From the NCBI GenBank assembly GCA_013299105.1, contig JAAFJY010000007.1, positions 124,001 through 188,000 on the forward strand: a stretch of DNA of 64,000 nucleotides, in the 5' to 3' direction. The stretch comes from Chitinophagales bacterium. Lineage in GTDB: Bacteria; Bacteroidota; Bacteroidia; Chitinophagales; Saprospiraceae. This document shows positions 4,080 through 42,470 of this stretch, piece after piece. Position 1 is the stretch's first letter; each line of letters opens with the position of its first letter. The notes under the pieces are model-generated. The model searched no databases and was not told where the DNA came from. It saw nothing but the letters and a program-made list of their open reading frames with translations. A program made the position numbers and the translations under genes.

Positions 4080-4167
4080 GGAGGAATGGCAGAGCGGTTG
4101 ATTGCAGCGGTCTTGAAAACCGCCGTACCGAGAGGTACCGGGGGTTCGAATCCCTCTTCCTCCGCCA
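4080..4167 (+). tRNA. tRNA-Ser(TGA)
   Basis: The acceptor arms GGAGGAA (4080-4086) and TTCCTCC (4157-4163) pair, followed by discriminator G and an encoded CCA. The anticodon stem GCGGT/ACCGC encloses CTTGAAA, with anticodon TGA at 4114-4116. A long variable arm (CCGTACCGAGAGGTACCGG region) identifies a class II tRNA, and GGTTCGAATCC gives the T-loop. It reads UCA serine codons. Its 3' end is the integration site of the adjacent element, yet the tRNA remains complete. Confidence 0.97.
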
Positions 4168-26211: not shown

Positions 26212-27818
26212 ATCGACTTAGTTTCGGTAGTAGTGGCGTGAAACCATGTCTGTAGGTTCGTTTGTATCTGGGCATTGCGTTTTGAATTTTTATTTAAACC
26301 AATATCTTTTGCTTCCTGGCCCAACTGGTTTTTATAAACAGCATTGATAAGCATAGAAAAAGGAATAACTTCAAGCGAAGTAAAACGGTGGCTAAAATTT
26401 AAGTCATGCGCGGACCACTCACGGGTCAGAATTTCAACACAATTGTGCTGTTTACTTTGTATGGCTTTGAGTTGTGCCAGTAAAAGTCCAACTCGATTGA
26501 GGAGGTACAGGTCGTTCAAATCATTGATCTTTTGCTCAATCAAGTCGATGCGGGTATTCATTCGATCAAAAAAACCTTGACGGAAGCAATTAATTAGCTG
26601 GAAAATCAATACTGAAATTTCTTCCGTAATCCATTGAATTTCTTCAATTGGCAAATCGTGAAAATAAGAAAGTTGCTTGATCTTTTGTAACTCGCCTTTT
26701 TCTCTGGGTGATAAATTTAGACACTTCAAGTCGGTTGACAATAAAAAATACAATTTAAAAATATTCCATTTCAATTTCAATTTATCTGGCAGAATGACAG
26801 TTCCTTCAAGATTTTGAAAGGTCTTAAAAATCGCCCAAGCTGATTCAAGTTGTCCCTGGTGTAGAAGCTGTTCAACCAGAAAAGAATGTTGACTGAACCA
26901 CAAGAAAGATCCCGGCATAAATAAATTTAGATTCTTTTTTATCAATACAGTGCCTTCTTCATATTTTCTTTGATTAAACGACACCAGAGCTGCTTGATTT
27001 TCAAAAAAGACCTTCATTTGCTGCAGGGTAGCTTTGTGGGCAGCTAGTCTTGTAATTTCGCATAGTGCAATCCGATACGCTGAATTCCATTTTTCATTCA
27101 ATATCGCCTCTTGCAATTTGAAAAAAGCTAAACAGAAAGATAGCACATTTGTCATGTTTTCTTGCTCAGTACATCTTATTTGTTGGTTCTTTGAACCAAC
27201 AAATGCTACCAAATCTTGGTGATTAAACCCTGGGTTTTGAGTCATCATCACAAAGGTCTGGACCTCATTAGTAGCTTTTGCTTCCAGCTCTAGTTTTTTC
27301 AGCTCTTGGGAAACGAAATTTGCATAATGCTGAAATTGTTTTTCATCACCAACATGCACTGCGAAGTATTGCCGCAAATGCATTCCGATTGAAATATTCA
27401 AACTGGTGATTTCATGTTCTATTCCTACTTGCAATAATTGAATCCCCATCTGAGACATGGTCCGATTACCATTAAGGCTAGATAGGAATTTAATCACTGC
27501 CAATCGTTGCCAGCACAAATAACGGATCCGCTCGGAATCTTGAACTTCTGATTGATTAATCTCAATAAACAATAGGGAATTACGTAGCCGTTTTTTCAGA
27601 TCTTTGACTGATTTTACTAAATTGGGGGCATCTGGTTGAGTACCCAGTAAAGCCGCCAGGTTTTCAGCATCTACCAGTTGGTTTTGTTGAATAAACCTGA
27701 ACAATTCTAAAAATTTATTGGTACCATCACCATTTGAATTTCCTTCTAAAACAGGAATATTTCTTACTTGGTGGTGTTCTAAAATGGTAACCAATTCATT
27801 GATGATATCCATAAACAA
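26208..27818 (-). CDS. Helical-repeat protein of unknown function, paralog 1
   Basis: This 536-residue helical protein is the first gene of a two-gene operon with its paralog. It shares VKDLKKRLRNSLLFIE and IRYLCWQRLAVIK with the second gene, but the remainder is strongly diverged. It contains several Gln/Lys-rich solenoid-like helices and no membrane segment. Lower GC and long Gln/Asn/Lys runs are seen here compared with the genes at 17-21 kb. It is divergent from the biosynthetic operon across a 1.75-kb gap. A scaffold or regulatory role is speculation. Confidence 0.75.
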   Translation of the reverse strand: MFMDIINELVTILEHHQVRNIPVLEGNSNGDGTNKFLELFRFIQQNQLVDAENLAALLGTQPDAPNLVKSVKDLKKRLRNSLLFIEINQSEVQDSERIRYLCWQRLAVIKFLSSLNGNRTMSQMGIQLLQVGIEHEITSLNISIGMHLRQYFAVHVGDEKQFQHYANFVSQELKKLELEAKATNEVQTFVMMTQNPGFNHQDLVAFVGSKNQQIRCTEQENMTNVLSFCLAFFKLQEAILNEKWNSAYRIALCEITRLAAHKATLQQMKVFFENQAALVSFNQRKYEEGTVLIKKNLNLFMPGSFLWFSQHSFLVEQLLHQGQLESAWAIFKTFQNLEGTVILPDKLKLKWNIFKLYFLLSTDLKCLNLSPREKGELQKIKQLSYFHDLPIEEIQWITEEISVLIFQLINCFRQGFFDRMNTRIDLIEQKINDLNDLYLLNRVGLLLAQLKAIQSKQHNCVEILTREWSAHDLNFSHRFTSLEVIPFSMLINAVYKNQLGQEAKDIGLNKNSKRNAQIQTNLQTWFHATTTETKSI

Positions 27819-29567: not shown

Positions 29568-29834
29568 ATGCAAGACAAGAACCAAGTACTCGAAAAAGTC
29601 AAAGGAATCATCGCTGAAGTAGCGGAACTTGATCCTTCTTCTATTGGTAATGATGCAAGTTTACCCTACGAGCTGGGGGTAGATTCTTTGATGGGACTGC
29701 AAATCCTGGTAGAACTCGAAAAAGAATTTGGAGTAGAACTCAATGAAGAGCAACTCTTACTGATGACCACTCCAAATAACATTGTTGCTTTGCTACAAGG
29801 TTATGAAGAAACCGTTGCAACTGTCAACTCCTAG
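29568..29834 (+). CDS. Acyl carrier protein
   Basis: This is an 88-residue ACP. The phosphopantetheine site is GVDSLMG with Ser40, followed by helix LQILVELEKEFGVEL typical of carrier proteins. It carries the growing acyl chain as a thioester. It is the first gene of a co-directional set of ketoreductase, ketosynthase, ketosynthase-like protein, dehydratase and acyltransferases, so it is a dedicated carrier and not the housekeeping AcpP. DSLMG in place of the DSLDT/DSLDV of AcpP fits a secondary-metabolite ACP. Confidence 0.93.
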   Translation: MQDKNQVLEKVKGIIAEVAELDPSSIGNDASLPYELGVDSLMGLQILVELEKEFGVELNEEQLLLMTTPNNIVALLQGYEETVATVNS

Positions 29835-29875
29835 TGTATCATTAAGCTGGTATTTGAAAGCAATAATCACGGGTC

Positions 29876-30622
29876 ATGAATTTAGAAGACAAAGTTTTTC
29901 TGGTGACTGGCGGGAGCCGGGGCCTGGGGAAAGCCATAGTTGAGAAACTGTGCGAAAAGGGTGCCAAAGTCGGATTTACTTGCTTGCACAATTTAGCAAA
30001 AGCTGAATCATTGGCAGCGAGTATTAATCAAAAAGGAAAGGGCGAAGCTGTGGCTTTCCAAACGGATGTAGCTGATCCATCCTCCGCAGCCCCTTTGATG
30101 AAAGCGGTAGTTGCACATTTCGGGAAACTGGATGGAATAGTCAACAACGCTGGAATCACCCTGGACCGTCCTTTTTTCAAAATGAGTGATCAAGACTGGG
30201 CCCAAGTGATCAGTACTAATTTGAATGGTGTATTTTATACCAGTAAGGCATACTTGCAAAATGCGATTCGAACTGGTCGAGGCAAAATTGTCAACATGTC
30301 ATCTGTATCGGGTTTGCGTGGTATGAAGGGACAGGCCAACTACAGTGCCAGTAAGGGAGGATTGATGGCCCTAACCCGCACCTTGGCCATAGAGTATGCA
30401 CCATTCAACATCCAAGTAAATGCACTCGCACCTGGGTATATTGAGACCGAAATGTTTGAGCACATGGAAGAGCCTGTCAAGCAAAAATTGAAGCAAAATA
30501 TCCCGTTAAAGCGCTTGGGGTCGCCTCAAGAAATAGCTAATCTCACTGCATTTTTGCTATCCGACGATTGCAATTACCTTACAGGACAGACCATCGCAGT
30601 GGACGGCGGCATAACCTGCTAA
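29876..30622 (+). CDS. 3-oxoacyl-ACP reductase, FabG-like
   Basis: This is a 248-residue short-chain dehydrogenase with TGGSRGLGKA (NADPH-binding loop), NNAGI, catalytic Ser in NMSSVSG and YSASKGG (catalytic Tyr and Lys), and a FabG-type C-terminus ending in GQTIAVDGGITC. It should reduce 3-oxoacyl-ACP to (3R)-hydroxyacyl-ACP in the chain-extension cycle of this gene set. It starts 41 bp after the ACP gene. The position between ACP and ketosynthase supports a role in the dedicated pathway. Confidence 0.93.
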   Translation: MNLEDKVFLVTGGSRGLGKAIVEKLCEKGAKVGFTCLHNLAKAESLAASINQKGKGEAVAFQTDVADPSSAAPLMKAVVAHFGKLDGIVNNAGITLDRPFFKMSDQDWAQVISTNLNGVFYTSKAYLQNAIRTGRGKIVNMSSVSGLRGMKGQANYSASKGGLMALTRTLAIEYAPFNIQVNALAPGYIETEMFEHMEEPVKQKLKQNIPLKRLGSPQEIANLTAFLLSDDCNYLTGQTIAVDGGITC

Positions 30623-30666
30623 TACCCCTTTTATCATTCTTGAACAACATGTAAAAACCTACTGCC

Positions 30667-31911
30667 ATGAGACGAGTAGTCATAACTGGCCTGGGAGTGG
30701 TATCGCCACTGGGCAACGATTTGAACAGCTTTTGGAATGCTTTGATCCAAGGTAAAACTGGGGTAAGTCGACTCAGCAAACTCCCTGCTGACGCATATAA
30801 AGGCGACACCCTTTCAGCTGAGGTGAAATGGGAAAGTACTCAATGCCCTACAATGAAAGGAGAGAGTCAAGCCATTAACTATGCGATTAAAGCTGCACAG
30901 GATTGTTTAGCAGATGCCCATTTGGATCATATTACTTTACCTAATCGGTATGCAGTAATTGTCGGGACGACCAGTGGGAATCAGGACTTGATTGAACGCA
31001 CTGTCAACGAAGATGACATTTGTAGTCCTGAAGATAAATTCTCAGCGGCTGCTATTGATACCTTAGCTAGAGTTCGCCCAATTCGCCTAAGTGCGGTGTT
31101 GGCAAAAACCTTAAAATTCCAAGGGTACAACATGGTTATTCCAACCGCTTGTGCTGCTGGTAATTATGCACTAGGCACGGCTTTTTCGATGATTCAATCG
31201 GGACAAACACCCATTGCATTGGCAGGTGGCGCAGATGGTTTTACCCGCTCTTGCTACACGATATTTTATCGTTTGGGTGGCATGACTTATCGAGACTGCC
31301 GCCCTTTCGACCAGGAACGATCGGGCATGGTTGTGGGTGAAGGTGCCGGTATGCTGTTGCTTGAGGACTTAGAGCATGCGTTGGCAAGAGGAGCCAAAAT
31401 CTATGCAGAAATCAAGGGATATGGCTTGGCCTGTGATGCTCACCATCGGGTCGCACCAGATCCAGAGGGTAAAGGTGCTGCCCTTGCAATGCAACAGGCT
31501 ATTCACTTTGCAGGCATCGAAAAATGTTCTGTGGACCTGATTAGTGCCCACGGAACGGGTACTCTAGCGAATGATAGCCAGGAAGCCAAAGCGTTAATGA
31601 GCGTTTTTGGACAATCCCTAAGCTCGATTCCCATTAGTGGTTTGAAATCAATGTTGGGGCATTGCATGGGGGCAGCAAGTTCACTAGAAGCTATTGCCGC
31701 AGTAATGAGCATCCAAGAAAAAATCATTCCTCCCACCATCAATACAAAAGCTGTTGATTCAGCGTATAGTGGAATCCTAGATGTGATTCCAAATGAAGCC
31801 CGAAGTAAAGGAGTGAAAACCGTACTCAGCAATGCATTTGGTTTTGGAGGAAACATTTGTAGTGTCCTTTTCAGCCAATTTGAACCTATAAAAATAGCAA
31901 ACCATGCATAA
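30667..31911 (+). CDS. Beta-ketoacyl-ACP synthase, FabF-like
   Basis: This 414-residue condensing enzyme has the complete catalytic triad Cys162 (PTACAAGNY), His295 (SAHGTGT) and His332 (MLGHCMGA). It would extend the ACP-bound chain by two carbons per cycle by decarboxylative condensation with malonyl-ACP. The next gene, overlapping by 8 bp, encodes a degenerate ketosynthase-like partner, the arrangement seen for KS/chain-length-factor pairs in type II PKS and aryl polyene pathways. Confidence 0.93.
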   Translation: MRRVVITGLGVVSPLGNDLNSFWNALIQGKTGVSRLSKLPADAYKGDTLSAEVKWESTQCPTMKGESQAINYAIKAAQDCLADAHLDHITLPNRYAVIVGTTSGNQDLIERTVNEDDICSPEDKFSAAAIDTLARVRPIRLSAVLAKTLKFQGYNMVIPTACAAGNYALGTAFSMIQSGQTPIALAGGADGFTRSCYTIFYRLGGMTYRDCRPFDQERSGMVVGEGAGMLLLEDLEHALARGAKIYAEIKGYGLACDAHHRVAPDPEGKGAALAMQQAIHFAGIEKCSVDLISAHGTGTLANDSQEAKALMSVFGQSLSSIPISGLKSMLGHCMGAASSLEAIAAVMSIQEKIIPPTINTKAVDSAYSGILDVIPNEARSKGVKTVLSNAFGFGGNICSVLFSQFEPIKIANHA

Positions 31912-32941
31912 CCTAGATTCAAAAGTAGCCATTATTGGGACGGGGTTCATCTCCCCTCAAGGTACCGGATTGGAAGGGTTTAATGAACATTTTCAAGCTG
32001 AAAACCAGCACTACACAATGCTAGAATTTGACCCACAAAATTATTTAGGTAAAAATGGCCTAAAGTTCGTTGGTACATCCTCTATCATGTTTTGCAACCT
32101 GGCTTATCAAAGCCTGGAAGATGCGAAACTGTTACCCCAACTAGCCGAACACCGTGGTAGAATTGGAATTTACGACGGCTCCGAACTGGCCAATTTGGAA
32201 GAAGCTTTTCATTTTGACATAAGTGCCAAAGTAGATGGAGCCGATCATGTAAGCCCAATGAGGGCCCCCAATACCTTGGCGAATGCTTCGGCCAGTTACT
32301 TTGCAATTAGAGAAAACATTGTAGGGCCAAACGTATCGGTATGTGGTGGAAGTAGTGGTTTTGTTCAAGCTTTGTACCTGGCAAAATTACACCTTGAAAA
32401 TGGAATGATAGATTTTGCAGTGGTCTGTGCTACCGATCATCAAACCTATTACTACGATTCCATTTTAAAAAGCCTGAACCCAAAAGATCATTCTAATCAT
32501 ACACCAAGATCGCATGGTGTAAGTGTAGTCTTGACCACAACACCGCAGGCAACTATTCACCAATTGAAACCTTTGGCTTTTTTGCACGACCTGCAAGCTG
32601 CTCAAGGTATTGAGGAAGTGAGCAATGAACTGCTCATGGCTACCCTTTTGGAAGATTTACCTCAACAAAATAAATGGGAGAAAATATACTTAGCGGGGCT
32701 TGGACTTCAACGGGAAAAAGAAGTCGAAAGCATAATGGAAATCCCTGTACCGTGCGAAAAATTAGCACTTCAATTTGGTACTTGTGATAGTACAGCTGGT
32801 GGAATTGCGCTCTTGACCGCGATCCGGGAAGCTAAACTAAAAAAGGATGAAAATCCTCTGAAAACCAGCTATCCCGTTGCAATTGGAGTTACAGATCCAA
32901 TCTCCTATATGATGGTTCTCGATTTAGAAGTAATACTTTAA
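31904..32941 (+). CDS. Degenerate ketosynthase / chain-length-factor-like protein
   Basis: This 345-residue thiolase-fold protein is shorter than FabF. The active-site region reads VSVCGGSSGF (Cys147); aligned by the conserved Gly, the catalytic Cys position holds Gly and the Cys is displaced. The HGTGT motif is not found. The region matching LGHCMGA reads FGTCDSTAGG, with Thr instead of the second His. It is therefore unlikely to condense by itself and is best read as the non-catalytic partner of the upstream ketosynthase, setting chain length. The 8-bp overlap supports stoichiometric co-expression. Confidence 0.75.
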   Translation: MHNLDSKVAIIGTGFISPQGTGLEGFNEHFQAENQHYTMLEFDPQNYLGKNGLKFVGTSSIMFCNLAYQSLEDAKLLPQLAEHRGRIGIYDGSELANLEEAFHFDISAKVDGADHVSPMRAPNTLANASASYFAIRENIVGPNVSVCGGSSGFVQALYLAKLHLENGMIDFAVVCATDHQTYYYDSILKSLNPKDHSNHTPRSHGVSVVLTTTPQATIHQLKPLAFLHDLQAAQGIEEVSNELLMATLLEDLPQQNKWEKIYLAGLGLQREKEVESIMEIPVPCEKLALQFGTCDSTAGGIALLTAIREAKLKKDENPLKTSYPVAIGVTDPISYMMVLDLEVIL

Positions 32942-32952
32942 ATACCACTGCC

Positions 32953-33462
32953 ATGACATGCTTACTCAGTCAAAATCAAATAAAACAACTCATTCCTCAT
33001 CGTTACCCAATCCTGATTCTGGATGAAATTTTAGAATACACACCCAGCAAGCGCATTTTGGCTTATGCTTATTTGGGTAGTGATGAACAGGTTTTTAGGG
33101 GGCATTTTCCAAGCTTCCCCATTTTACCTGGGGTGTTTCTAGTGGAAGGCTTGGCACAGGCCAGTTCTGTTTTCCTTGAATTGAACCATCAAGCTTGGAA
33201 CCCTGGAAATGAGCTCATACCTAATCCAGGCAATGGAATGCTAGGGGTATTGGGGTCAGCTGAAACGAGGTTTAAGCACCCTGTTTTTCCAGATTCTGAA
33301 GTCTTTTTTGAGGCTGTGACAACCCGTGAATTCAGTAACTCATTATTTATGAAAGTTCGGGCCTATTACGGCGATAAAACCTTCGTATCTGGTACCATTT
33401 CAGTAACAAAAGTACATCAAAAAGTACTGGCAAGAAACTCAGATTATGAAACCATATATTGA
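32953..33462 (+). CDS. 3-hydroxyacyl-ACP dehydratase, FabZ-like
   Basis: This 169-residue hotdog-fold protein has IPHRYPILILDEI with the catalytic His, RGHFPSFPILPGV, and VEGLAQAS with the catalytic Glu of the FabZ/FabA family. It would dehydrate (3R)-hydroxyacyl-ACP to the trans-2-enoyl form. No enoyl reductase gene is present in the cluster, so the product could keep its double bonds, as in polyene pathways, or rely on the housekeeping reductase. Its end overlaps the acyltransferase gene by 17 bp. Confidence 0.88.
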   Translation: MTCLLSQNQIKQLIPHRYPILILDEILEYTPSKRILAYAYLGSDEQVFRGHFPSFPILPGVFLVEGLAQASSVFLELNHQAWNPGNELIPNPGNGMLGVLGSAETRFKHPVFPDSEVFFEAVTTREFSNSLFMKVRAYYGDKTFVSGTISVTKVHQKVLARNSDYETIY

Positions 33463-34537
33463 ATCGTATAACCAGGAAATAAACAAATATGCGCAATTGA
33501 TAGACGAACGGATCAAACGCATGTTTGAAAAAGGAACCTTGATGAGGTATGCTTTTACAATTGCTAATTTCCGAAAAATGATGCCTGACTTGTTTGAAAT
33601 AGAATCAGCAACTGATCTATTCTCGAAGATGCTCAAAATACGTGGTATCGCATTGTTAGATCCACACTATCCGGAGATATTGAATGATGTAAAATACAGT
33701 GGTGCCTGGTTAGAGGAAATACAACTCCAAGGAGCAGCCATATATTGTACTTATCATCTGGGTTCTTATCGCGCAATCATAGGCCATCTAGCCAAGCGCG
33801 GAAAGCCATTCAGCCTGGTTATTGACCAAAAAGTCTATGCAGAACAGCATGAGGAAATCAAGCAATCAGTTCGAAGTGTATGTAAGTATTTTAATACTTC
33901 CTCAAACTTTGAATTGATCAATGCAGAGGACTTTACTTCTACCCTCGAGATGTTGCGCCAACTCAAACGAGGCCGCTCGCTGATTATCTATCTGGATGGA
34001 AATACTGGTGTAGGTGGCGTTTATCGCCAAGACCATCAACTCATTAAGTTGAAATTTTTGGGCCAAGATATGTTGGTTCGCCAGGGTATTGCGCTATTGT
34101 CTCAACTAAGTGGTGCCCCTATCATTCCAACGATTAGTTATCGAGAAACAGATAGCGATCTCAACATGTACTTCGGCGCCCCCATCAAGGCCATTGACAA
34201 TATTGCTGATCAAAAGAATTATTGCGAAAAGGTTACCAAGCAATTGTACTCGCTTCTGGAAGAGTTTCTTTGGCAGTATCCATTACAATGGGAAGGGTGG
34301 CTGTATGTCCATAAATACTTGGACCTGACCTCAATTACAGCGCATGCTGCTGCTGCCAAGCCAATAGGAGAAGATGGTTCATTTGATGATGAAAGATTTG
34401 GGCTTTTCCGTATGGGTAAATCTCAATATTACTTACTGGATAAAGACACCTTTGTCACTTTTGAAATCACTAGTAAGCAATATTTCCAATTCAAGGGGCT
34501 CCCCATTGAGGAATCCTCAAATCTTAATCCATCATGA
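33446..34537 (+). CDS. LpxL-like acyltransferase, paralog 1
   Basis: This 363-residue protein resembles the LpxL/HtrB lysophospholipid-acyltransferase superfamily, which moves acyl chains from ACP to hydroxyl or amino groups. Conserved blocks are TYHLGSYRA (His104), FSLVIDQKVY, a strand GRSLIIYLDGNTG, and RQGIALLSQLSGAPIIPTI. The usual H-x4-D/E dyad is H-LGSY-R, so the acidic residue is replaced by Arg109. There is no transmembrane anchor at the N-terminus. The C-terminal 60 residues form an extra domain also seen in the paralog. It probably takes the chain from the cluster ACP; the acceptor is unknown. Confidence 0.72.
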   Translation: MKPYIESYNQEINKYAQLIDERIKRMFEKGTLMRYAFTIANFRKMMPDLFEIESATDLFSKMLKIRGIALLDPHYPEILNDVKYSGAWLEEIQLQGAAIYCTYHLGSYRAIIGHLAKRGKPFSLVIDQKVYAEQHEEIKQSVRSVCKYFNTSSNFELINAEDFTSTLEMLRQLKRGRSLIIYLDGNTGVGGVYRQDHQLIKLKFLGQDMLVRQGIALLSQLSGAPIIPTISYRETDSDLNMYFGAPIKAIDNIADQKNYCEKVTKQLYSLLEEFLWQYPLQWEGWLYVHKYLDLTSITAHAAAAKPIGEDGSFDDERFGLFRMGKSQYYLLDKDTFVTFEITSKQYFQFKGLPIEESSNLNPS

Positions 34538-35754
34538 ACCTAAAAAATTTTGAAGGAAGACTAGCAGATTTACATGCACAAGTTGACCAACAAGTCGGTC
34601 AGCTTAAAGCAAAGATGGAAATCAAAACCTACTGCAATGCGATTGCCAATATCAAAACATTTTTACCTCAATTTTTAGATGGTAAAAACCCAGAGACTTG
34701 CTTCAGGCAATACTTGGCTTATCGAACTGCCGCCCACTTGGATCATGTATCACCTGAACGGGCTGCTGACATCAAGATCAGTGGTCACTTTGAGGAAATC
34801 TTAAATGATCCCAAACACCCAAGACTGTATTCGACCTTTCATCTAGGGTCTTACCGGGCTTTATTGGGCTTACTGACACGAGTTGGCGTGAAATTTTCAC
34901 TGGTAGTCAACAATCAGGTTTACACTGCACAACGCAATGAAATGTTACAAACCTTGGATAAAATCGCTGAAATGTATGGTTTACAAACTCAAATTAACAT
35001 CATCAACTCCAGTGATTTCAATGCTGCTGCTAAAATGGCTAAAGATTTTCGAAATGGATATTCCTTGGTGATTTATGCAGATGGCAACACAGGAACAGGT
35101 GGTCAATCACGTCAGGACGAACGCACCAGCAGAGTCAAATTTCTGGGTCAACATATTTATGTAAGACAAGGACCAGCATTTTTTGCTAATCTTTTTCAAG
35201 AACCAATCTACCCAATCATTTCTTACCGAGAATGTAAGAATGAAATTCTCTTGAAGTTTTGTGCCCCCATCCAGCCAGCAAAAAAGGCACCGAGATCAAA
35301 AGTTTGTCAAGAAATTATGCAAAAATTATTTGACATTCTGGAGATCCACCTCAAGCAATTTCCCTTGCAATGGGACCATTGGTCGAGTATTCATTTGCAG
35401 CTGGATACTGAAAGTTTGTCCCGTATAAAGCAGGAGTCCTGTTTTTTCGAGCCCAATACCAACGCCACCAAGCTAACTTTTAACGAAGATCGCTTTGGAG
35501 TTTACATCCATGAAAATGCTGGCTACTTACTCGATTATGTCACACAACAGACCTACCCTTTGTCGATTGAACAGGTCCATACATTGAGTAGCTACTGGCC
35601 TCGACTCCAAAACGGGGTAAAGCCACAAGTTGAATTAACACCAGGCCTTATCAAGCAATTACTCAGTCGAGAGATCCTTATTGATCTTGACCAGGTCCAT
35701 TACAAAACACAGATTGCTAAATCCAATTCATTCACCTCAATACAATTGTCATGA
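34534..35754 (+). CDS. LpxL-like acyltransferase, paralog 2
   Basis: This 406-residue paralog of the preceding gene overlaps it by 4 bp. It has the same motifs: TFHLGSYRA (His103, Arg108 at the position of the usual acidic residue), SLVIYADGNTGTGG and RQGPAFFANLFQEPIYPII. The longer C-terminal extension contains DRFGVYIHENAGYLLDY, matching DERFGLFRMGKSQYYLL in paralog 1, which looks like a small peptide- or substrate-recognition domain. Two non-identical enzymes suggest two acylation positions or two acceptors. The acceptor could be the peptides encoded just downstream. Confidence 0.72.
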   Translation: MNLKNFEGRLADLHAQVDQQVGQLKAKMEIKTYCNAIANIKTFLPQFLDGKNPETCFRQYLAYRTAAHLDHVSPERAADIKISGHFEEILNDPKHPRLYSTFHLGSYRALLGLLTRVGVKFSLVVNNQVYTAQRNEMLQTLDKIAEMYGLQTQINIINSSDFNAAAKMAKDFRNGYSLVIYADGNTGTGGQSRQDERTSRVKFLGQHIYVRQGPAFFANLFQEPIYPIISYRECKNEILLKFCAPIQPAKKAPRSKVCQEIMQKLFDILEIHLKQFPLQWDHWSSIHLQLDTESLSRIKQESCFFEPNTNATKLTFNEDRFGVYIHENAGYLLDYVTQQTYPLSIEQVHTLSSYWPRLQNGVKPQVELTPGLIKQLLSREILIDLDQVHYKTQIAKSNSFTSIQLS

Positions 35755-36173
35755 AAACTCATCACTACAAAATTGCATATTTTCTATGCATCGGGCTGAA
35801 TGCATTTGCCCAAACTAGTCATGAATCGATCTCCATCCAAATCAAAGTGGTCAACCTAACTACGAATGAAGGAAAAGTTGGAGTACTACTGCTCAATGAG
35901 GAAAAAAAAGTTGTAGCAAGCGCAATGCTTAAAGTGCAAGAAAATCAATGCAGCATAAAATTTGAAAATCAAAGCGCTGGAAAGTATGCTGCGAAATTTT
36001 TCCACGACCAAAATGGCAATGGTAAAATGGACGCCAATAGCCTTGGAATTCCCGCTGAAAGCTATGGGTTTTCAAATGGAGTCAAAGGTATTTTCGGTTC
36101 TCCACCCGAATTCAATAAAACCATTTTCACAGTATCCAATAACACTATCATTCAGCTGGAGCCAGCCAATTAG
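35751..36173 (+). CDS. DUF2141-family secreted protein
   Basis: This 140-residue protein has an N-terminal signal peptide (about residues 1-20, ending NAFAQ). The DUF2141 pattern is clear: YAAKFFHDQNGNGKMD, then GIPAESYGFSNG and FGSPPEF. The fold is probably a small beta-sandwich in the periplasm. Its biochemical role is unknown, though family members often sit beside pigment and lipid biosynthesis genes in Bacteroidota. It overlaps the acyltransferase gene by 4 bp and precedes the precursor peptides by 43 bp. Confidence 0.82.
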   Translation: MKTHHYKIAYFLCIGLNAFAQTSHESISIQIKVVNLTTNEGKVGVLLLNEEKKVVASAMLKVQENQCSIKFENQSAGKYAAKFFHDQNGNGKMDANSLGIPAESYGFSNGVKGIFGSPPEFNKTIFTVSNNTIIQLEPAN

Positions 36174-36216
36174 GGCTTTTGGTCGAAGCATAACAAAACA
36201 TCAAAAAACGCCAATC

Positions 36217-36396
36217 ATGGAAAACAACATTTTCAACCTAGAAGGCGGGCTGAGTATCCGCGAATTAGAAACCAGACAGGAAATGTCTATTGCCCTAGAT
36301 CAAACTGAGGCACCAGAGGGTGTAGATGCAATGGCCTGCCGTTGTAAATGCTCTGAAAACTCAGATACTGGTGCTGAGCAGGAAAAAACTACCTAA
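36217..36396 (+). CDS. Precursor-like peptide 1 (CRCKC variant)
   Basis: This is a 59-residue peptide. The leader-like part, MENNIFNLEGGLSIRELETR followed by QEMSIA, matches the leaders of the four genes downstream. The C-terminal part differs: DAMACRCKCSENSDTG, with three Cys in a C-x-C-x-C pattern and Arg42 between the first two. This peptide is the only one of the five with an Arg outside the leader. It is the first of the array and the most diverged. It was called from composition, leader conservation and position, not from a known family. Confidence 0.75.
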   Translation: MENNIFNLEGGLSIRELETRQEMSIALDQTEAPEGVDAMACRCKCSENSDTGAEQEKTT

Positions 36397-36446
36397 ACTA
36401 AATCCCTACAAAACATCACCTTATTTACTAACCTAATCTATTTTTT

Positions 36447-36620
36447 ATGGAAACCAACAATTTTGACCTGAACCAAAGCCTGAACATCGAAGAACTCGAA
36501 GCCCGTCAGGAACTGTCTGTTGCCACCATTAGCGATGCAAGCCTCGAAGAAGCTGACGCTGCGGCCATGGCCAAGTGCAAGTCAGAAGAAAAGGCAAAGA
36601 CTGAGACCAAGGAGTCTTAA
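36447..36620 (+). CDS. Precursor-like peptide 2
   Basis: This 57-residue peptide has leader METNNFDLNQSLNIEELEAR then QELSVATISDASLEEAD, and C-terminal part AAAMAKCKSEEKAKTETKES. It has one Cys and six Lys, and its only Arg is Arg20 in the leader. It is nearly identical to peptides 3 and 4, with a repeat period of about 222 bp including the spacer. It is presumably cleaved near the AAAMA/KCK boundary; the cleavage site is a guess. Confidence 0.78.
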   Translation: METNNFDLNQSLNIEELEARQELSVATISDASLEEADAAAMAKCKSEEKAKTETKES

Positions 36621-36668
36621 GCCTTTCTAATCATCAAACCCATTTTCTAACCACAACAATTTTTAAAC

Positions 36669-36842
36669 ATGGAAACCAACAATTTTGACCTGAACCAAAG
36701 CCTGAACATCGAAGAACTCGAAGCCCGTCAGGAATTGTCAGTTGCTACGATCAGCGATGCAAGCCTCGAAGAAGCTGAAGCCGCTGCAATGGCCAAGTGC
36801 AAGTCAGAAGAAAAAGCAAAGACTGAAACCAAAGAGTCTTAA
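36669..36842 (+). CDS. Precursor-like peptide 3
   Basis: This 57-residue near-copy of peptide 2 has a conservative change (EAEAAA instead of EADAAA before MAKCK). Leader, single Cys and Lys-rich tail are unchanged. The spacer before it (TAACCACAACAATTTTTAAAC) is shared by the following copies, so duplication included the ribosome-binding region. Confidence 0.78.
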   Translation: METNNFDLNQSLNIEELEARQELSVATISDASLEEAEAAAMAKCKSEEKAKTETKES

Positions 36843-36891
36843 GCATTTCTGATTATTCAAACCCATTTTCTAACCACAACAATTTTTAAAC

Positions 36892-37065
36892 ATGGAAACC
36901 AACAATTTTGACCTGAACCAAAGCCTGAACATCGAAGAACTCGAAGCCCGTCAGGAACTGTCTGTTGCCACAATCAGCGATGCAAGCCTCGAAGAAGCTG
37001 ACGCTGCGGCCATGGCCAAGTGCAAGTCAGAAGAAAAAGCAAAGACTGAAACCAAAGAGTCTTAA
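36892..37065 (+). CDS. Precursor-like peptide 4
   Basis: This 57-residue peptide has the same protein sequence as peptide 2; the DNA differs at a few mostly silent positions. Silent differences between copies indicate that the protein sequence is under constraint. It has the same upstream spacer as its neighbours. Confidence 0.78.
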   Translation: METNNFDLNQSLNIEELEARQELSVATISDASLEEADAAAMAKCKSEEKAKTETKES

Positions 37066-37113
37066 TCATTTCTGACCATCTAACTCATTTTCTAACCACA
37101 ACAATTTTTAAAC

Positions 37114-37278
37114 ATGGAAACCAACAATTTTGACCTGAACCAAAGCCTGAGCATCGAAGAACTCGAAACCCGCCAGGAATTGTCTGTTGCCACCATTGGC
37201 GATTCAAGCTTAGAAGAGGTTGAAGCCGCAGCAATGGCCAAGTGCAAGTCAGCCGAGGCTGAAACTTCAGCTGAATAA
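37114..37278 (+). CDS. Precursor-like peptide 5
   Basis: This 54-residue peptide has leader METNNFDLNQSLSIEELETR with conserved QELSVATI. The C-terminal part is AAAMAKCKSAEAETSAE, so the KCKS motif is kept but the Lys-rich tail is replaced by an acidic one. It is the last copy before the M50 protease gene, 123 bp downstream. The variation is concentrated after KCKS, as expected of a trimmed or variable end. Confidence 0.76.
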   Translation: METNNFDLNQSLSIEELETRQELSVATIGDSSLEEVEAAAMAKCKSAEAETSAE

Positions 37279-37401
37279 TAGCAGCATAAAGTGATTGATT
37301 TTGGGCATGGAGTATTCCGAATAGGCAGCTCCTGCCCATTATCAATCTTCCTTGCAACATCTGGCAACACCGACCATTATTCAAACCACATCAATTGCAA
37401 T

Positions 37402-38646
37402 ATGAAAACGCAGCAACCCATTCCAGCTCTTGATTTTGAAGCGTTAGCTGCAAAGCTTGCTGCTTTTGATTTCACCCTGGAAATACCGGAATCAAATCGG
37501 TATTTACTCATTTTTCAAGAACAATATTATCAGATCGACCAGGTCTCTTATCTGGTATTGAATAGCATTAAAAAAAGTACTGATCTGGGAACATCTTTGG
37601 AACTGGCATTCCCCACCATTGATCTCTCAACGCATGACCTTCGGGTTATAAGCGATCATTTAACAGAACAAGTACTTCCATTGTTAGAAAACCAAACTCC
37701 TCCCAAAAAGAAATCTGTTAAAGAACTATTCACGCTAGTTCATCCGACAGCAATTCTTCCAATTGCTAAGATGCTTGCTTTTCTTTTCAATCCTCGAATT
37801 TTTTACCCTCTACTTGTTTTATCCGTCGCTTTGAACAGTGCTTTTTGGTTTTTAGTCAAATCTAAAACAATCCATTTCAAAGGTCAAGGACACTTGGAAA
37901 CCGAAGTTTATTTAGGCTATCTGCTAGCCATATTTGGATTCTTGCTCTTACATGAGTTTGGCCACGCCACGGCTTCAATGGTGATGGGCAAAGCACCTGG
38001 CAAAATTGGAGTAGGCATTTACTTTGTTTTCCCAGCCTTTTTTACTGACTTGACAGCTATTTGGTCACTACAACGTCAGCAGCGCATTGTCATCAACCTG
38101 GGTGGAATTTACCTCCAGTTGCTGATCAATCTCCTAATGATGGGCATTCTATTTCTATTTCAAAATTCACCTCCAACGGTCAGCTTCATGCTCCGCATCA
38201 TAGGATTTAATATTTTGATTAGCCTGTACAATATCAATCCCTTTTTCAAATTTGATGGCTATTGGATTTACAGCGATTTTTTCAAGCTTCCTAATTTGAG
38301 ACAACAAAGCAATGAATTATTGAGAAGCTTATTTTTTGCTCTCCCCAAATTTTTATTTAAATCCAGGCTAAAAACCAATTTTAAAGGACTCTCCTCCCCG
38401 CCGTTATTTACTTACACCATTTCATATTTTGTATTCATGGTGTTCGTATGGTACTTGTTATTGCAATTCATTGTCCGTACTCACCTGAGTTTTTGGCATA
38501 GCCTACAAGAAATTGGACCCTTTGAGTGGAATGATTTCCACGCCTGGAAACAATTGGCAGGACCAATTATAGTCTTGCTTTTCTGCTGGATGATCGTCTA
38601 TTTACGCTTTGCTCCAACTTTTAAATTTAGAAAGTATGCAAACTGA
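37402..38646 (+). CDS. Membrane zinc metalloprotease, M50/S2P-like, with possible PqqD-like N-terminus
   Basis: This is a 414-residue multi-pass membrane protein. The ATG at 37402 is preferred over an upstream in-frame ATG (37291) whose extra residues look non-coding. Residues 1-100 have a small alpha/beta pattern (YLLIFQEQYYQIDQVSYLVL then helices) similar to PqqD-type peptide-recognition domains. Then come hydrophobic segments with HEFGH (His184, Glu185, His188) and NPFFKFDGYW (Asn279, Asp285), the two site-2-protease motifs. It is likely the leader peptidase or processing enzyme of the adjacent peptides. The PqqD-like assignment is by eye. Confidence 0.78.
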   Translation: MKTQQPIPALDFEALAAKLAAFDFTLEIPESNRYLLIFQEQYYQIDQVSYLVLNSIKKSTDLGTSLELAFPTIDLSTHDLRVISDHLTEQVLPLLENQTPPKKKSVKELFTLVHPTAILPIAKMLAFLFNPRIFYPLLVLSVALNSAFWFLVKSKTIHFKGQGHLETEVYLGYLLAIFGFLLLHEFGHATASMVMGKAPGKIGVGIYFVFPAFFTDLTAIWSLQRQQRIVINLGGIYLQLLINLLMMGILFLFQNSPPTVSFMLRIIGFNILISLYNINPFFKFDGYWIYSDFFKLPNLRQQSNELLRSLFFALPKFLFKSRLKTNFKGLSSPPLFTYTISYFVFMVFVWYLLLQFIVRTHLSFWHSLQEIGPFEWNDFHAWKQLAGPIIVLLFCWMIVYLRFAPTFKFRKYAN

Positions 38647-39907
38647 ATTTCCCAAACAACTAATAAAATCAGCGTACCTCAAAATAACTGATGAGGATCG
38701 TGATGGGGTAACCTTGATCCATTCCCTGAGTGGTCGTCAATTCAAAGTGTGCAAAAAGACTGTCACAGTTCTCGATTTCTTTCAGGAGCCTCAATTCATT
38801 GAGCAATTGTCTTTAAGCTCAGCAATGAAGTTGAGTATCCATGAACTTTGGTCCAAAGGCCTACTGGTGGACTATCTTCACCGGGAAATTGAAGCCGTAC
38901 TACGCATACCCAACAAGCCTAGTTACTTCGGGCTACCAAACCTGGATGGGCAACAGTCTCCACAGGTTGTTATGATCGGTGTACCATTCGCTGGCGGAAA
39001 TACCGAATCCCCAGAAGTCAAAGGCTTCCCCAGTCGATTGAGGCAATTGAGTGACATGTATGGCATTGACTTGAGCGGTAAAAGCTGGGTAAACATGAGC
39101 GCGCTAGGCGAAAACCTATCCGTACAAAACCTTGCAGCGTTGGTTAAGGAAAACCTGCTCAAAGATGGAGGTGATATCCTTTGTCATCCTTATGAATCCA
39201 GGCGGCATATTCTTGCTAAAATAAAAACACTGCTGGGCGAGTTGTTCTCCGCAGGCTATGTGCCATTCTCTATTGGTGGAGACCACTCCTTGAGTTTGCC
39301 CATCATTCAAGCAGCCAGTACGTGTTACAATGAGTTTCAGGTCTTTCATTTTGATGCCCATACGGATGTATATTCATCTGCTTTCGACCCATTACTGCAA
39401 GTGGATAACATTCACCACCACGGGAATTTTGTAAGCCATTGCCTAAAAATCCCACAAATCACCCATTATTATCAATTTGGTATCCGAGGCATCAACAACA
39501 TCACTCATCAAGACAAGCCTAAGCTCAAGACCTTTTGGGTGAATGAATTAAAAAATGCAATTCTGCAACATCAGATTTTAGACATCTCCCTTGACATCCC
39601 TTGTTACATCACTTTTGACATTGATGTAATGGATCCGTCATTGGCACCAGGAACCAACACCCCGGTTCCGAATGGTTTTACCTTTGGTGAAGTGCTTGAC
39701 TTATTCAATTTACTAAAGTTAGGACAAAGGCAAATCATCGGGCTTGATTTTGTAGAAGTAAATATAAAAAAAGATCCCGGCGGGCTCACAGCTTCACTTG
39801 CTACGCAACTGATTTTGAATTTATTGAATCAAATCAATCCACAACTCCTGCCCACTACTAAACAGATTGACAGGCAATCCAAGTATTCTTTTTCATCACA
39901 AGACTAG
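38636..39907 (+). CDS. Arginase-fold enzyme with N-terminal peptide-binding-like domain
   Basis: This is a 423-residue protein; the ATG at 38636 overlaps the end of the protease gene by 11 bp. Residues about 105-420 form a ureohydrolase domain with all manganese ligands: GGDHS (His217), DAHTD (Asp240, His242, Asp244) and DID (Asp328, Asp330), with a late Glu in DFVEVN. The first 100 residues are not part of normal arginases; a Gly-Arg turn, then helices (VTVLDFFQ, IHELWSKGLLV), resemble winged-helix recognition domains of RiPP enzymes. Peptide arginases that convert Arg to Orn are known (OspR type). It probably acts on the upstream peptides; free arginine or agmatine is the alternative. Confidence 0.8.
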   Translation: MQTEFPKQLIKSAYLKITDEDRDGVTLIHSLSGRQFKVCKKTVTVLDFFQEPQFIEQLSLSSAMKLSIHELWSKGLLVDYLHREIEAVLRIPNKPSYFGLPNLDGQQSPQVVMIGVPFAGGNTESPEVKGFPSRLRQLSDMYGIDLSGKSWVNMSALGENLSVQNLAALVKENLLKDGGDILCHPYESRRHILAKIKTLLGELFSAGYVPFSIGGDHSLSLPIIQAASTCYNEFQVFHFDAHTDVYSSAFDPLLQVDNIHHHGNFVSHCLKIPQITHYYQFGIRGINNITHQDKPKLKTFWVNELKNAILQHQILDISLDIPCYITFDIDVMDPSLAPGTNTPVPNGFTFGEVLDLFNLLKLGQRQIIGLDFVEVNIKKDPGGLTASLATQLILNLLNQINPQLLPTTKQIDRQSKYSFSSQD

Positions 39908-39911
39908 CACT

Positions 39912-42413
39912 ATGAAATCGACTTCTGAATTTTCTAAGGCTCTTGGCACACCATCTGGTATCTTTGTTCGGTGGAAGAGCCATTCTATTACAGGATATTA
40001 CACGATAGTACAATTCTATCTGGCATTATTACTGATTATGTGCAGCGTAAAGTTACACGCCCAAGCCAACGTCGAAGGCTTAATCATCGATCAGCAAAAA
40101 CAAGCCTTGCCAGGGGTCAACGTCAGCCTCATCCGCAGCCAGGACTCTGTGCTGATTACAGGGACTTTCAGCGGTTTAGATGGCAAATTTAGCCTGAAAC
40201 AGGTTCCATACGGCACTTATCACCTCACATTTTCCATGATCGGTTTTACTACTACAAAAAGTGAGGATTTTGACTTGACTAGCCTGCGTTCTACTGTCAG
40301 TAGCCCCACACAAACAATGCAGGAAGAGGTTCATCAACTGAATGAAGTCGTGGTCAAAGCCGTACAACGTAACCTCGAATACAAAGGAGATCGCCTCATT
40401 TTCAATGTAGCCAGTAGTGGAGCAGGAGAAGGTAGTTCGACTATCGAACTCTTGCAAATGATCCCAGGCGTATTGGTAATCAATGAAAGTGTAAGGCTCA
40501 ATGGTCGCGAAGGGGTAAACATACACGTGGATGGTCGCCCAAGTGGCTACAGTGATTTCAGCACTTTCCTGAAAGACATGCCAGGCAGTATGATCGAGCG
40601 CATTGAGGTGATCAGCAATCCAGGGGCACGTTACGATGCAGCTGGCAGCAACGGCATCATCAATGTAGTTTTGAAAAAGAATGCCAACTTGGGCACCAAT
40701 GGCAGCTACAGCCTGGCCGCAGGTTATGGTCGTTTTGAAAAATCGAATGCCTCTCTTGCATTGAATCACCGCAAAGGCATCATCAACGTATTTGGCAACA
40801 TCGGTGGAAATTTACGGCATAGTTTCGACGGAAACACCCTTTCTCGTTGGGTTGGAAGTACGCAATTTTCCCAAGACGGCGATCGAAATTTCAATACGCT
40901 AGCGGGTAATTTACGCATGGGAATTGACTTGTTTCTCAATAAAAAAAATACCATCGGTATTTTGGCTTCGGGCAATCAAGGAAATACCGCTAGTGATCAG
41001 CAAACACTCACTGATGTGTTGCCCGAAAACGTCGCTTACCAACAACAACTCAACACCATCAATATCGGCGAGCGCAATTGGCGCACATCTGCACTCAATC
41101 TCAATTATCGACACAAGTTTGACACTACTGGCCATGAATGGTCTTTTGACCTGGATCGTTCCGATTATATTGTTGGCCTATTGGTCAATCAGCATTCCGA
41201 TTTACTCAAAGGGGCAAGGCAAGGTATACCGCTACCTTTTAGAAATACCCAACCTACGATCACTGGAATTTGGTCCGCCAAAACTGATTACAGCTATCCT
41301 ATCAACTCCAAAACCAGCCTTGATTTGGGCGCAAAATGGAGCCAGGCCCACATCGATAGCGACCTCAAATTCGAACAATCGCTGGATGACAAATGGGAAA
41401 ATGACCAACGTAGGTCCAACCATTTCATTTACGACGAACAGATCAGCGCAGCTTATGCCAATCTTTTGCACAAATTCGGAAAATTCAGTGTGCAAGCTGG
41501 CTTGAGATTTGAAGCAACCGCACTGTCGGGAAAAAACCAGGCTTTGGACAACAGCAGTTTTCAACGAAACTACCAACAATTATTTCCCAGTCTGTTCATT
41601 TCACGGCCCGTTTTGGTAGATAAAATGGTTGCTCATTTGTCCTACAGCCGCAGGATCGACCGACCAGTTTATCAAGACCTCAATCCTTTTGTAATGTACA
41701 TGGATCCTTTTACCTTCCGCAGAGGAAATACGGAATTGAGGCCACAACTCACCGATACGTACAAGTTTCGACTTGCTTACGACGGACAACCATTCATGAC
41801 CTATAGTTACAATGTTAGCCGGGATCCCATCAGCCGAGTGACTGAACAAAACGATGCCGAGCAGACTACCTACACGTACAGTGCTAATTTGGGCACCTTG
41901 CGTAACTTTGACGCCAGTGTTTATTTCCCCATTGTTGTTGGGAAAAAATTATCGGGCATTGGTGGCGTTTCGTTTTTGTACAATGAATACAATGCAACCT
42001 TTTTGAGCGAAGTTTATGTAGCCAAAGCCTGGTCAACCAATTACTTTTTGCAATTGAGCATCAAACTACCCAAAAACCTGAGCTTTGAAGGTACTGGTTG
42101 GTACCAATCCAAGGGCATTGATGGACTGATGAGCCACCAGGCTTTGTATGGCTCTACCTTATCACTACAAAAAAAGTTTACAGAAAGCCGCTCTCGTCTG
42201 CGTTTAGCCTGGACCGATCCCTTGTTCAAATATTGGCAAGGAGCCACTGACTTTAAAAATATGAATTTGAACGTGACAGCCAGGTGGGAAACCAGCATTT
42301 TACGCCTCAGTTGGAGCCAAAGCTTTGGGAACAAAGTTTTGAAAGATGCTCGAAAAAGGACCAACAGTACAGAAGATGAGCAAAAAAGGGTAAAAACCGA
42401 GGACGATAAGTGA
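39912..42413 (+). CDS. TonB-dependent receptor-like outer-membrane protein
   Basis: This 833-residue protein starts 4 bp after the arginase stop. The N-terminus has about 30 extra polar residues, a hydrophobic segment and HAQA, then a carboxypeptidase-like regulatory domain (about residues 57-140, VEGLIIDQQKQALPGVNVSL), a plug with NGREGVNIHVDGRPSGYSDF, and a barrel. It belongs to the receptor type with an outer-membrane beta-barrel domain but no obvious TonB box. As last gene of the operon it may export the mature product or re-import it. A strong terminator follows at 42431. Confidence 0.85.
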   Translation: MKSTSEFSKALGTPSGIFVRWKSHSITGYYTIVQFYLALLLIMCSVKLHAQANVEGLIIDQQKQALPGVNVSLIRSQDSVLITGTFSGLDGKFSLKQVPYGTYHLTFSMIGFTTTKSEDFDLTSLRSTVSSPTQTMQEEVHQLNEVVVKAVQRNLEYKGDRLIFNVASSGAGEGSSTIELLQMIPGVLVINESVRLNGREGVNIHVDGRPSGYSDFSTFLKDMPGSMIERIEVISNPGARYDAAGSNGIINVVLKKNANLGTNGSYSLAAGYGRFEKSNASLALNHRKGIINVFGNIGGNLRHSFDGNTLSRWVGSTQFSQDGDRNFNTLAGNLRMGIDLFLNKKNTIGILASGNQGNTASDQQTLTDVLPENVAYQQQLNTINIGERNWRTSALNLNYRHKFDTTGHEWSFDLDRSDYIVGLLVNQHSDLLKGARQGIPLPFRNTQPTITGIWSAKTDYSYPINSKTSLDLGAKWSQAHIDSDLKFEQSLDDKWENDQRRSNHFIYDEQISAAYANLLHKFGKFSVQAGLRFEATALSGKNQALDNSSFQRNYQQLFPSLFISRPVLVDKMVAHLSYSRRIDRPVYQDLNPFVMYMDPFTFRRGNTELRPQLTDTYKFRLAYDGQPFMTYSYNVSRDPISRVTEQNDAEQTTYTYSANLGTLRNFDASVYFPIVVGKKLSGIGGVSFLYNEYNATFLSEVYVAKAWSTNYFLQLSIKLPKNLSFEGTGWYQSKGIDGLMSHQALYGSTLSLQKKFTESRSRLRLAWTDPLFKYWQGATDFKNMNLNVTARWETSILRLSWSQSFGNKVLKDARKRTNSTEDEQKRVKTEDDK

Positions 42414-42430
42414 TTCATGTTACCAAAAAA

Positions 42431-42470
42431 AATCGCCAAGAGGACGATGTGTCCTCTTGGCGATTTTTTT
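42431..42470. terminator. Strong bidirectional terminator
   Basis: AATCGCCAAGAGGAC and GTCCTCTTGGCGATT pair perfectly over 15 bp around a 5-nt loop. A T-run follows on the plus strand and an A-run precedes it, so it can end both the biosynthetic operon and the convergent YceI gene. Confidence 0.9.

Follow-up and report, generated by a model that had tools for sequence, protein, structure and literature searches.

A Saprospiraceae operon encoding a candidate pathway for acylated ribosomal peptides around LPLAT-type acyltransferases

An operon of a Chitinophagales bacterium (Saprospiraceae; assembly GCA_013299105.1) places genes for building an acyl chain beside two acyltransferases and five short peptides. 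This raises the question as to whether these genes form a single pathway or are unrelated neighbours. The operon occupies positions 29568-42413 of the window, by which we mean the whole stretch of 64,000 nucleotides analysed (contig JAAFJY010000007.1, positions 124,001 to 188,000, forward strand), and all of its genes run in one direction according to an open reading frame (ORF) check. Sequence comparisons and structure models suggest that it is probably a pathway for acylated ribosomally synthesised and post-translationally modified peptides (RiPPs), that is, for gene-encoded peptides lipidated post-translationally. The recurrent unit is a precursor peptide gene plus an LPLAT-type acyltransferase gene, often with an M50-type protease and an arginase, and the window operon is the Saprospiraceae form of this recurrent system, in which a type II module is dedicated to chain building. 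The gene set listed in a first-pass annotation of this DNA is confirmed, its ORFs and gene names matching the ORF check and Pfam/NCBIfam domain searches. The features are as follows, with E-values in brackets; the starts at 37402 (M50), 38636 (arginase) and 39912 (receptor) are refined, and all are ATG.

29568-29834, + strand: acyl carrier protein, ACP (PF00550 5.5e-16; counterparts in loci L043/L071 and L072)
29876-30622, + strand: short-chain dehydrogenase/reductase (SDR), ketoreductase, KR (PF13561 4.6e-67)
30667-31911, + strand: ketosynthase, KS, with Cys-His-His present (PF00109/PF02801)
31904-32941, + strand: KS-like partner resembling a chain-length factor (CLF), without the active-site Cys and His residues (PF00109 2.1e-8)
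32953-33462, + strand: FabZ-like dehydratase, DH (PF07977 5.8e-15; NCBIfam FabZ 6.5e-28, below cut-off)
33446-34537, + strand: LPLAT1, lipid-A-type acyltransferase with a shortened C-terminal domain (PF03279 1.3e-5, above cut-off)
34534-35754, + strand: LPLAT2, acyltransferase with a C-terminal domain (about residues 312-392) like a RiPP recognition element, RRE (PF03279 3.6e-4, below cut-off; AlphaFold2 model)
35751-36173, + strand: DUF2141 protein (PF09912 1.1e-24)
36217-36396, + strand: precursor peptide 1, core ..MACRCKC.., leader ELETRQE (ORF and sequence)
36447-36620, + strand: precursor peptide 2, core ..AMAKCKS.. (ORF and genome peptide search)
36669-36842, + strand: precursor peptide 3 (ORF and genome peptide search)
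36892-37065, + strand: precursor peptide 4 (ORF and genome peptide search)
37114-37278, + strand: precursor peptide 5 (ORF and genome peptide search)
37402-38646, + strand: M50-type membrane protease with an RRE-like N-terminal domain (HExxH; daptide_HExxH 5.4e-29, below cut-off)
38636-39907, + strand: PF00491 arginase/agmatinase-fold enzyme with an RRE-like N-terminal domain (PF00491 1.1e-50)
39912-42413, + strand: TonB-dependent-receptor-type outer-membrane protein (OMP_b-brl_3 5.9e-87)
42425-42470, strand not assigned: hairpin with a T run, terminator-like (read from the printed sequence)

How widely are LPLAT and peptide genes found together? LPLAT2 used as a single query matched 3 of 296 genomes, its own included, and found nothing in a scan of genome contigs. 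Sequence profiles of the LPLATs reached further: profile A1 matched 49 of 150 genomes of the family that holds Spirosoma (that of genome G249) and 3 of 60 near relatives, again counting the genome of the window, and profile A2 gave 35 named loci in the contig scan. The latter come from taxa including Saprospiraceae, Arcicella, Hymenobacter, Pedobacter, Spirosoma, Neolewinella, Flavobacteriaceae, Segatella, Prevotella and Chitinophagaceae (one is a Segatella copri record) and, outside Bacteroidota, Thalassotalea and Rugamonas. The neighbourhoods of 52 LPLAT loci, a subset of all, were examined, and 33 of these contain precursors with a shared leader motif. At many loci, tandem leader-motif peptides with a Cys in the core (about ten in L086) have M50, arginase and LPLAT genes nearby; of the 33 precursor-bearing loci, 24 have a known M50 and 22 the family arginase, in the locus or elsewhere in the genome. 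The full window order of ACP, KR, KS, CLF, DH, two LPLATs, DUF2141 and precursors recurs in two Saprospiraceae loci, L071 (the same as L043), where the contig ends inside a precursor, and L072. In L073, with a contig that begins inside the KS, the KS is followed by CLF, DH, two LPLATs and DUF2141, and there are five precursors, of which one lies ahead of DUF2141. All three genomes have an arginase with an adjoining M50 on another contig, and in L111, from the genome that also holds L072, a precursor stands before the M50 gene.

The first-pass annotation had associated the LPLATs with the peptides, and this holds up: the association recurs across several genera of Bacteroidota as well as in two records from proteobacteria, LPLAT2 has an RRE-like domain and the gene order is kept. 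LPLAT genes without precursors in other genomes had been named as grounds for rejecting it. This is mostly not what is seen, given the 33 leader-motif loci and the fact that, at 9 of 11 single-LPLAT loci in the Spirosoma family, another kind of peptide, also with a Cys, is encoded immediately 5' of the LPLAT gene. These Spirosoma-family peptide/LPLAT units might possibly encode a lipopeptide signal. At the single-LPLAT loci L005:9742-12434, L006:687-3235, L054 and L057-L062, the upstream peptide reads ..ACCSS.. or ..SCYGI.., and close by are genes for a LytTR protein, checked with Pfam for L005 alone, and for a regulator that looks LuxR-like by eye. Another compact arrangement is the Chitinophagaceae-type two-gene unit, with the peptide just before the LPLAT (L080, L081, L088, L089, L092 and L093) and ending in SCC(I/F)DTQPP-like sequences, or SSCGVDTAP in L089; neither an M50 nor an arginase was found in the fetched stretches around the two-gene units. 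The Thalassotalea (L094) and Rugamonas (L102) loci hold the set of precursor, M50, arginase and LPLAT, and the presence of this set outside Bacteroidota suggests horizontal transfer.

Are the short peptides genuine precursors? Window peptides 2-4 differ by 5-11 synonymous and 0-1 nonsynonymous codons, and because synonymous changes far outnumber nonsynonymous ones in these copies, the peptides are coding genes under purifying selection. A genome-wide peptide search with E up to 1 gave five matches, every one inside the array. The peptides have the features of RiPP precursors, being short and present in tandem copies with a conserved leader and a variable core; scans against Pfam and NCBIfam release 20 gave no family above cut-off, and no hydrophobic signal-like stretch was seen by eye, without use of a predictor. 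Across genera the shared leader is roughly L-x-I-x-ELE-x-R-x-E (LxIxELExRxE), which a literature look-up did not link to pinensins. A core Cys is present in 85 of 86 distinct precursors from 28 loci, the single Cys-less peptide (L052) being perhaps a false call. The residue directly before the Cys is Arg in 69 of the 86, only Lys in 7 and neither in 9.

The two LPLATs are the candidate acyltransferases for these peptides. In the AlphaFold2 model of LPLAT2 (pLDDT 83.9), the N-terminal domain resembles LpxM and PatA, and a distinct C-terminal domain is built of three strands and helices. A Foldseek search of the PDB with the whole model places it in the LPLAT fold (LpxM 5kn7, 1.6e-11; PatA 5f2z, 2.7e-11), and a PDB search with the LPLAT sequence profile gave chance-level matches only. 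The catalytic His is kept in all 72 LPLAT sequences that cover the site (2 of 74 do not). LPLAT1 has 62 residues past the catalytic domain versus 107 in LPLAT2, and this shortened C-terminal domain suggests that it is a partner of LPLAT2. When the C-terminal domain of LPLAT2 was modelled alone (pLDDT 82), Foldseek ranks 1-7 of 350,542 PDB chains were TbiB1, CteB and SuiB (probability 0.60-0.98, TM 0.40-0.52), with FusB1 at rank 10 and ThcOx at rank 12 among unrelated proteins; all five are proteins of RiPP pathways that carry an RRE. In hhalign comparisons, the N-terminal domains of arginase and M50 are related to each other (probability 95, E 5e-8) and the LPLAT C-terminal domain to that of the arginase (probability 79, E 2e-5), while 12 of 12 control pairs with catalytic domains stayed below probability 1. 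By fold and by profile, the maturation enzymes therefore appear to carry RRE-like domains. The M50 protein itself matches described families below cut-off only (PF02163 0.29, and daptide_HExxH as best NCBIfam match). HExxH is invariant in 9 of 9 aligned M50 proteins, and among 150 genomes of the Spirosoma-holding family strong M50 matches (E below 1e-80) are found in the same 8 where leader-motif clusters were read.

What do the chain-building genes contribute? The KS retains its catalytic Cys-His-His, and alignment shows all three replaced in its partner in the window, as is typical of chain-length factors; the L071 copy of the partner still has the last His. The best PDB matches of the KS are 9s5h_B (2.3e-92), the FabF-type 4ls6_A (4e-79) and the ketosynthase 6kxd_A (6.4e-79), and that of the partner, in which only the N-terminal KS domain was matched by Pfam, is 9s5h_C (5.2e-12). 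No enoyl reductase was recognised among the operon genes, and the chain would therefore probably be unsaturated. A KS/CLF pair with KR and DH but no enoyl reductase resembles aryl-polyene logic, and the LPLATs have the fold of lipid acyltransferases. The chain genes could thus make a separate aryl-polyene- or flexirubin-like lipid, with LPLATs that acylate a membrane lipid and peptides that are unrelated neighbours. We regard this as very unlikely, since the LPLAT is fused to an RRE-like domain, the gene order is kept in other Saprospiraceae, two-gene precursor/LPLAT units exist, and 17 of the 33 loci with leader-motif precursors have an LPLAT and no KS gene, KS genes being present at the other 16. 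Aryl polyene and flexirubin clusters have a KS/CLF-like pair, KR, DH, ACP and LPLAT in common with the operon, whereas the operon has an LPLAT with an RRE-like domain and encodes precursors, M50 and arginase. An AMP-binding ligase (PF00501), which in aryl polyene clusters activates the aryl starter, is absent from the window operon proteins scanned and present in L044 and L045. The chain-making genes are an optional module of the precursor/LPLAT system. The first-pass proposal of a dedicated chain moved by the LPLAT pair to the peptides keeps its second half, the LPLATs belonging with the peptides, and has to be relaxed in its first; since 17 of 33 precursor-bearing loci lack a KS, the LPLAT is presumably able to use ordinary acyl-ACP.

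The arginase provides a further link to the peptides. PF00491 covers residues 119-405 of the long frame, behind an N-terminal extension of about 110 residues. In the motifs GGDHS, DAHTD and DxD, the His, the D/H/D and both D are invariant in 7 of 7 members, and we take these residues to be the metal ligands of PF00491 ureohydrolases; PF12640 gave a match in only 1 of 7 members, at E 0.21. The family arginase is found, in the locus or the genome, for 22 of 22 loci with Arg-Cys precursors and for 0 of 11 without (Fisher 5e-9; p 5e-4 among M50-bearing loci only, 21 and 3), p-values that overstate the case because related genomes are not independent. Whole-genome searches made after the rule was formed fit it in 9 of 9 genomes: the arginase is present in all five genomes with Arg-Cys precursors whose fetched stretch had shown none (L071, L072, L073, L084 and L085; E 3.2e-133 or better), and was not found at E 1e-40 in four genomes without Arg-Cys (G762, G785, G688 and the genome containing L075). 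At the remaining seven loci that lack Arg-Cys, absence refers to the fetched stretch, which is 4.8 kb for L089 and 6.1 kb for L105. In the Spirosoma-holding family, exactly 5 of 150 genomes have the arginase, and these are the five with Arg-Cys precursors among the eight that hold leader-motif clusters; a single-protein search at E 1e-40 found only the window's own genome among 395, as did a profile search at E 1e-60 among 296. The 22/11 count omits eight loci without a precursor by pattern (L087, L090, L095, L097, L099, L100, L103 and L104) and the 11 Spirosoma-family single-LPLAT loci, and the window was entered from the sequence of peptide 1, the open frame of which exceeds the length limit of the pattern script. 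Inspected by eye, the omitted loci L087 and L090 contain Cys peptides that lack Arg-Cys, with no arginase; in L095 an RCNNRC peptide occurs together with an arginase fragment, the arginase is present in L099, and in L103 and L104 an M50 adjoins the LPLAT. In L050/L065 (G762) the core reads AVC without Arg, M50, LPLAT and KS genes are kept, and no family arginase was found genome-wide at E 1e-40.

Because, among the 33 loci counted, the arginase was found wherever Arg-Cys was and at none without it, the Arg of Arg-Cys is its most likely target on sequence grounds; an Arg in the leader is not, as it persists where the arginase is absent. The catalytic domain has agmatinases as its best matches, which would fit an agmatinase-like enzyme acting on a small molecule rather than a peptide. 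Such a role seems most improbable in view of the strict co-occurrence with Arg-Cys precursors and of the relationship between its N-terminal domain and that of the M50. A different, selidamide-like possibility of some weight is that the chain resides on the side-chain amine of an arginase-made ornithine, or of a lysine, next to the Cys, with the Cys used otherwise. A basic residue directly before the Cys is common, in 69 plus 7 of 86 precursors, and acyl-ornithine and acyl-lysine RiPPs are known (PMC12703449, PMC13060382). Against it, 9 of the 86 precursors come with an LPLAT and have a Cys without Arg or Lys directly before it, and the same is true of the peptides of the Chitinophagaceae two-gene units and of the Spirosoma-family single-LPLAT loci.

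We favour acylation centred on the Cys, the product being most likely a Cys- (or Orn/Lys-) acylated RiPP. In the proposed pathway, the RRE-like domains would dock the LxIxELExRxE leader, ACP, KS/CLF, KR and DH would build a chain, probably unsaturated, and the LPLAT2/LPLAT1 pair would transfer this chain from the ACP onto the core peptide, most likely to the thiol of the conserved Cys, from where it might end on a neighbouring Lys or Orn amine. The arginase would convert the Arg of Arg-Cys to ornithine (peptide 1 in the window), the M50 protease would cut off the leader in the membrane, and the outer-membrane receptor would move or sense the product.

Several observations weigh against this pathway. 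The acid of the HX4D/E motif is present in 0 of 72 LPLATs, with Arg in its place in 66 (HX4R), and acyl transfer itself could therefore be altered. In LPLAT2 the two residues of this motif are His103 and Arg108. Given that the title of PDB entry 5knk terms a Glu of LpxM catalytic, the HX4R LPLAT could be no acyltransferase and carry out another reaction on the precursor, e.g. thioester or ring formation at Cys; this is unlikely, as the catalytic His is kept in 72 of 72 sequences, the LPLAT fold is kept and KS genes adjoin in 16 of 33 loci. An HX4R active site would instead fit a thiol acceptor, because a thiol needs less activation than a hydroxyl. The leader pattern behind the count of 33 of 52 loci was widened after viewing the Chitinophagaceae loci, so as to take in their peptides; 8 loci lack a precursor by this pattern, and L097, L100, L103 and L104 have no convincing candidate. 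Of the precursor-bearing loci, 17 of 33 have no KS gene. Four genomes without an LPLAT match nevertheless contain M50 relatives, of weaker similarity (1e-41 to 1e-51). Of the five peptides in the window, four (2-5) carry Lys-Cys and only peptide 1 carries Arg-Cys. As to the RRE-like domains, the Foldseek E-values for the LPLAT2 C-terminal domain are weak (0.05-0.5 at ranks 1-7, none <=0.001), hhalign gives the LPLAT C-terminal and M50 N-terminal domains a probability of 13, and a Pfam search of arginase and M50 found no PqqD/RRE domain.

How does the system compare with known lipidated RiPPs? The examples described in PMC13060382 and PMC12636315 owe their lipid either to GNATs or to the ordinary lipoprotein route. 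Selidamides (kamptornamide, phaeornamide) and nostolysamides are, like the candidate system, RiPPs with fatty acyl groups on side chains, kamptornamide also having ornithines, but they are made by GNATs acting on lanthipeptides, in contrast to an LPLAT with an RRE-like domain and a Cys-centred core (PMC12703449, PMC13060382). Pfam scans of the operon proteins gave no GNAT match, and no lanthipeptide enzyme was recognised in the window operon. Lipolanthines, goadvionins and lipoavitides likewise bear an acyl chain, which in goadvionins and lipoavitides reportedly comes from dedicated polyketide synthase (PKS) or fatty acid synthase (FAS) genes. Unlike here, all three are class III lanthipeptides acylated N-terminally by GNATs (PMC13060382). 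The DAG-RiPPs of Dyadobacter (DybA/DybH) have a lipidated Cys in a Bacteroidota RiPP, as proposed here; they differ in that a signal peptide leads them into the normal route for lipoproteins (Lgt/Lnt) and in having an MNIO enzyme (PMC12636315). No MNIO enzyme is among the Pfam matches of the operon. The peptide arginases OspR, FlmR and OhkR (PF12640) and KgrD (PF00491) convert Arg to Orn on RiPP precursors, the KgrD family being the same PF00491 as here (PMC12703449); what sets the present arginase family apart is PF00491 combined with an RRE-like N-terminal domain. The M50 protein, with daptide and epipeptide HExxH proteases as its best NCBIfam matches, below their cut-offs, differs from these in its extra N-terminal domain.

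The literature on RiPP acyltransferases, peptide arginases and lipidated RiPPs, covered through titles and abstract openings with most subscription papers outside, yielded no LPLAT-type RiPP acyltransferase. Sequences and models make the LPLAT most likely a new type of candidate RiPP acyltransferase within a recurrent system. If so, the RRE-fused LPLAT would be a further, independent route to lipidated RiPPs, borrowed from outer-membrane lipid assembly. As a tentative and rather doubtful extension, these systems could form a new class of RiPPs, found mainly in Bacteroidota. An RRE-bearing HX4R LPLAT would load a type II PKS/FAS chain on the core Cys as a thioester, followed by S-to-N transfer onto arginase-made ornithine in Arg-Cys members, and in the Spirosoma family the reduced precursor/LPLAT pairs located next to LytTR and LuxR-type regulators would serve as lipopeptide signals. 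The precursor motif, LPLAT-RRE and arginase-RRE provide handles for genome mining, the accompaniment of Arg-Cys by the arginase provides a substrate rule, and the two-gene units are small enough for reconstitution.

Some neighbouring features deserve mention. A Lant_dehydr_N match (1e-17) lies inside an LPLAT/KS cluster at L046:10648-13284, and L045 and L048 have like-sized genes in the corresponding position; a lanthipeptide reading was rejected, as the window operon has no such match. C39-peptidase ABC transporter and radical SAM genes beside some clusters (L063:8936-11239, L067:14937-16190 and L046:3301-4434) are probably separate RiPP loci. The strong terminator placed at the operon end by the first-pass annotation is borne out by the long hairpin ending in a T run, but not by a consensus scan, which made no + strand call there and gave only a shorter - strand site at the hairpin (11 sites in the region vs. 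13.3 by chance); the + strand hairpin was missed probably because its T run is taken up by the stem. Promoter-like sites in the region number 36 vs. 25.6 (standard deviation 5.5) in shuffles and carried no weight in the interpretation. At Rfam gathering thresholds, the sole match in the 64-kb window is a tRNA at 4080. Finally, on the minus strand at 24697-27818, the window contains two adjoining large ORFs of like size, 504 and 536 amino acids.

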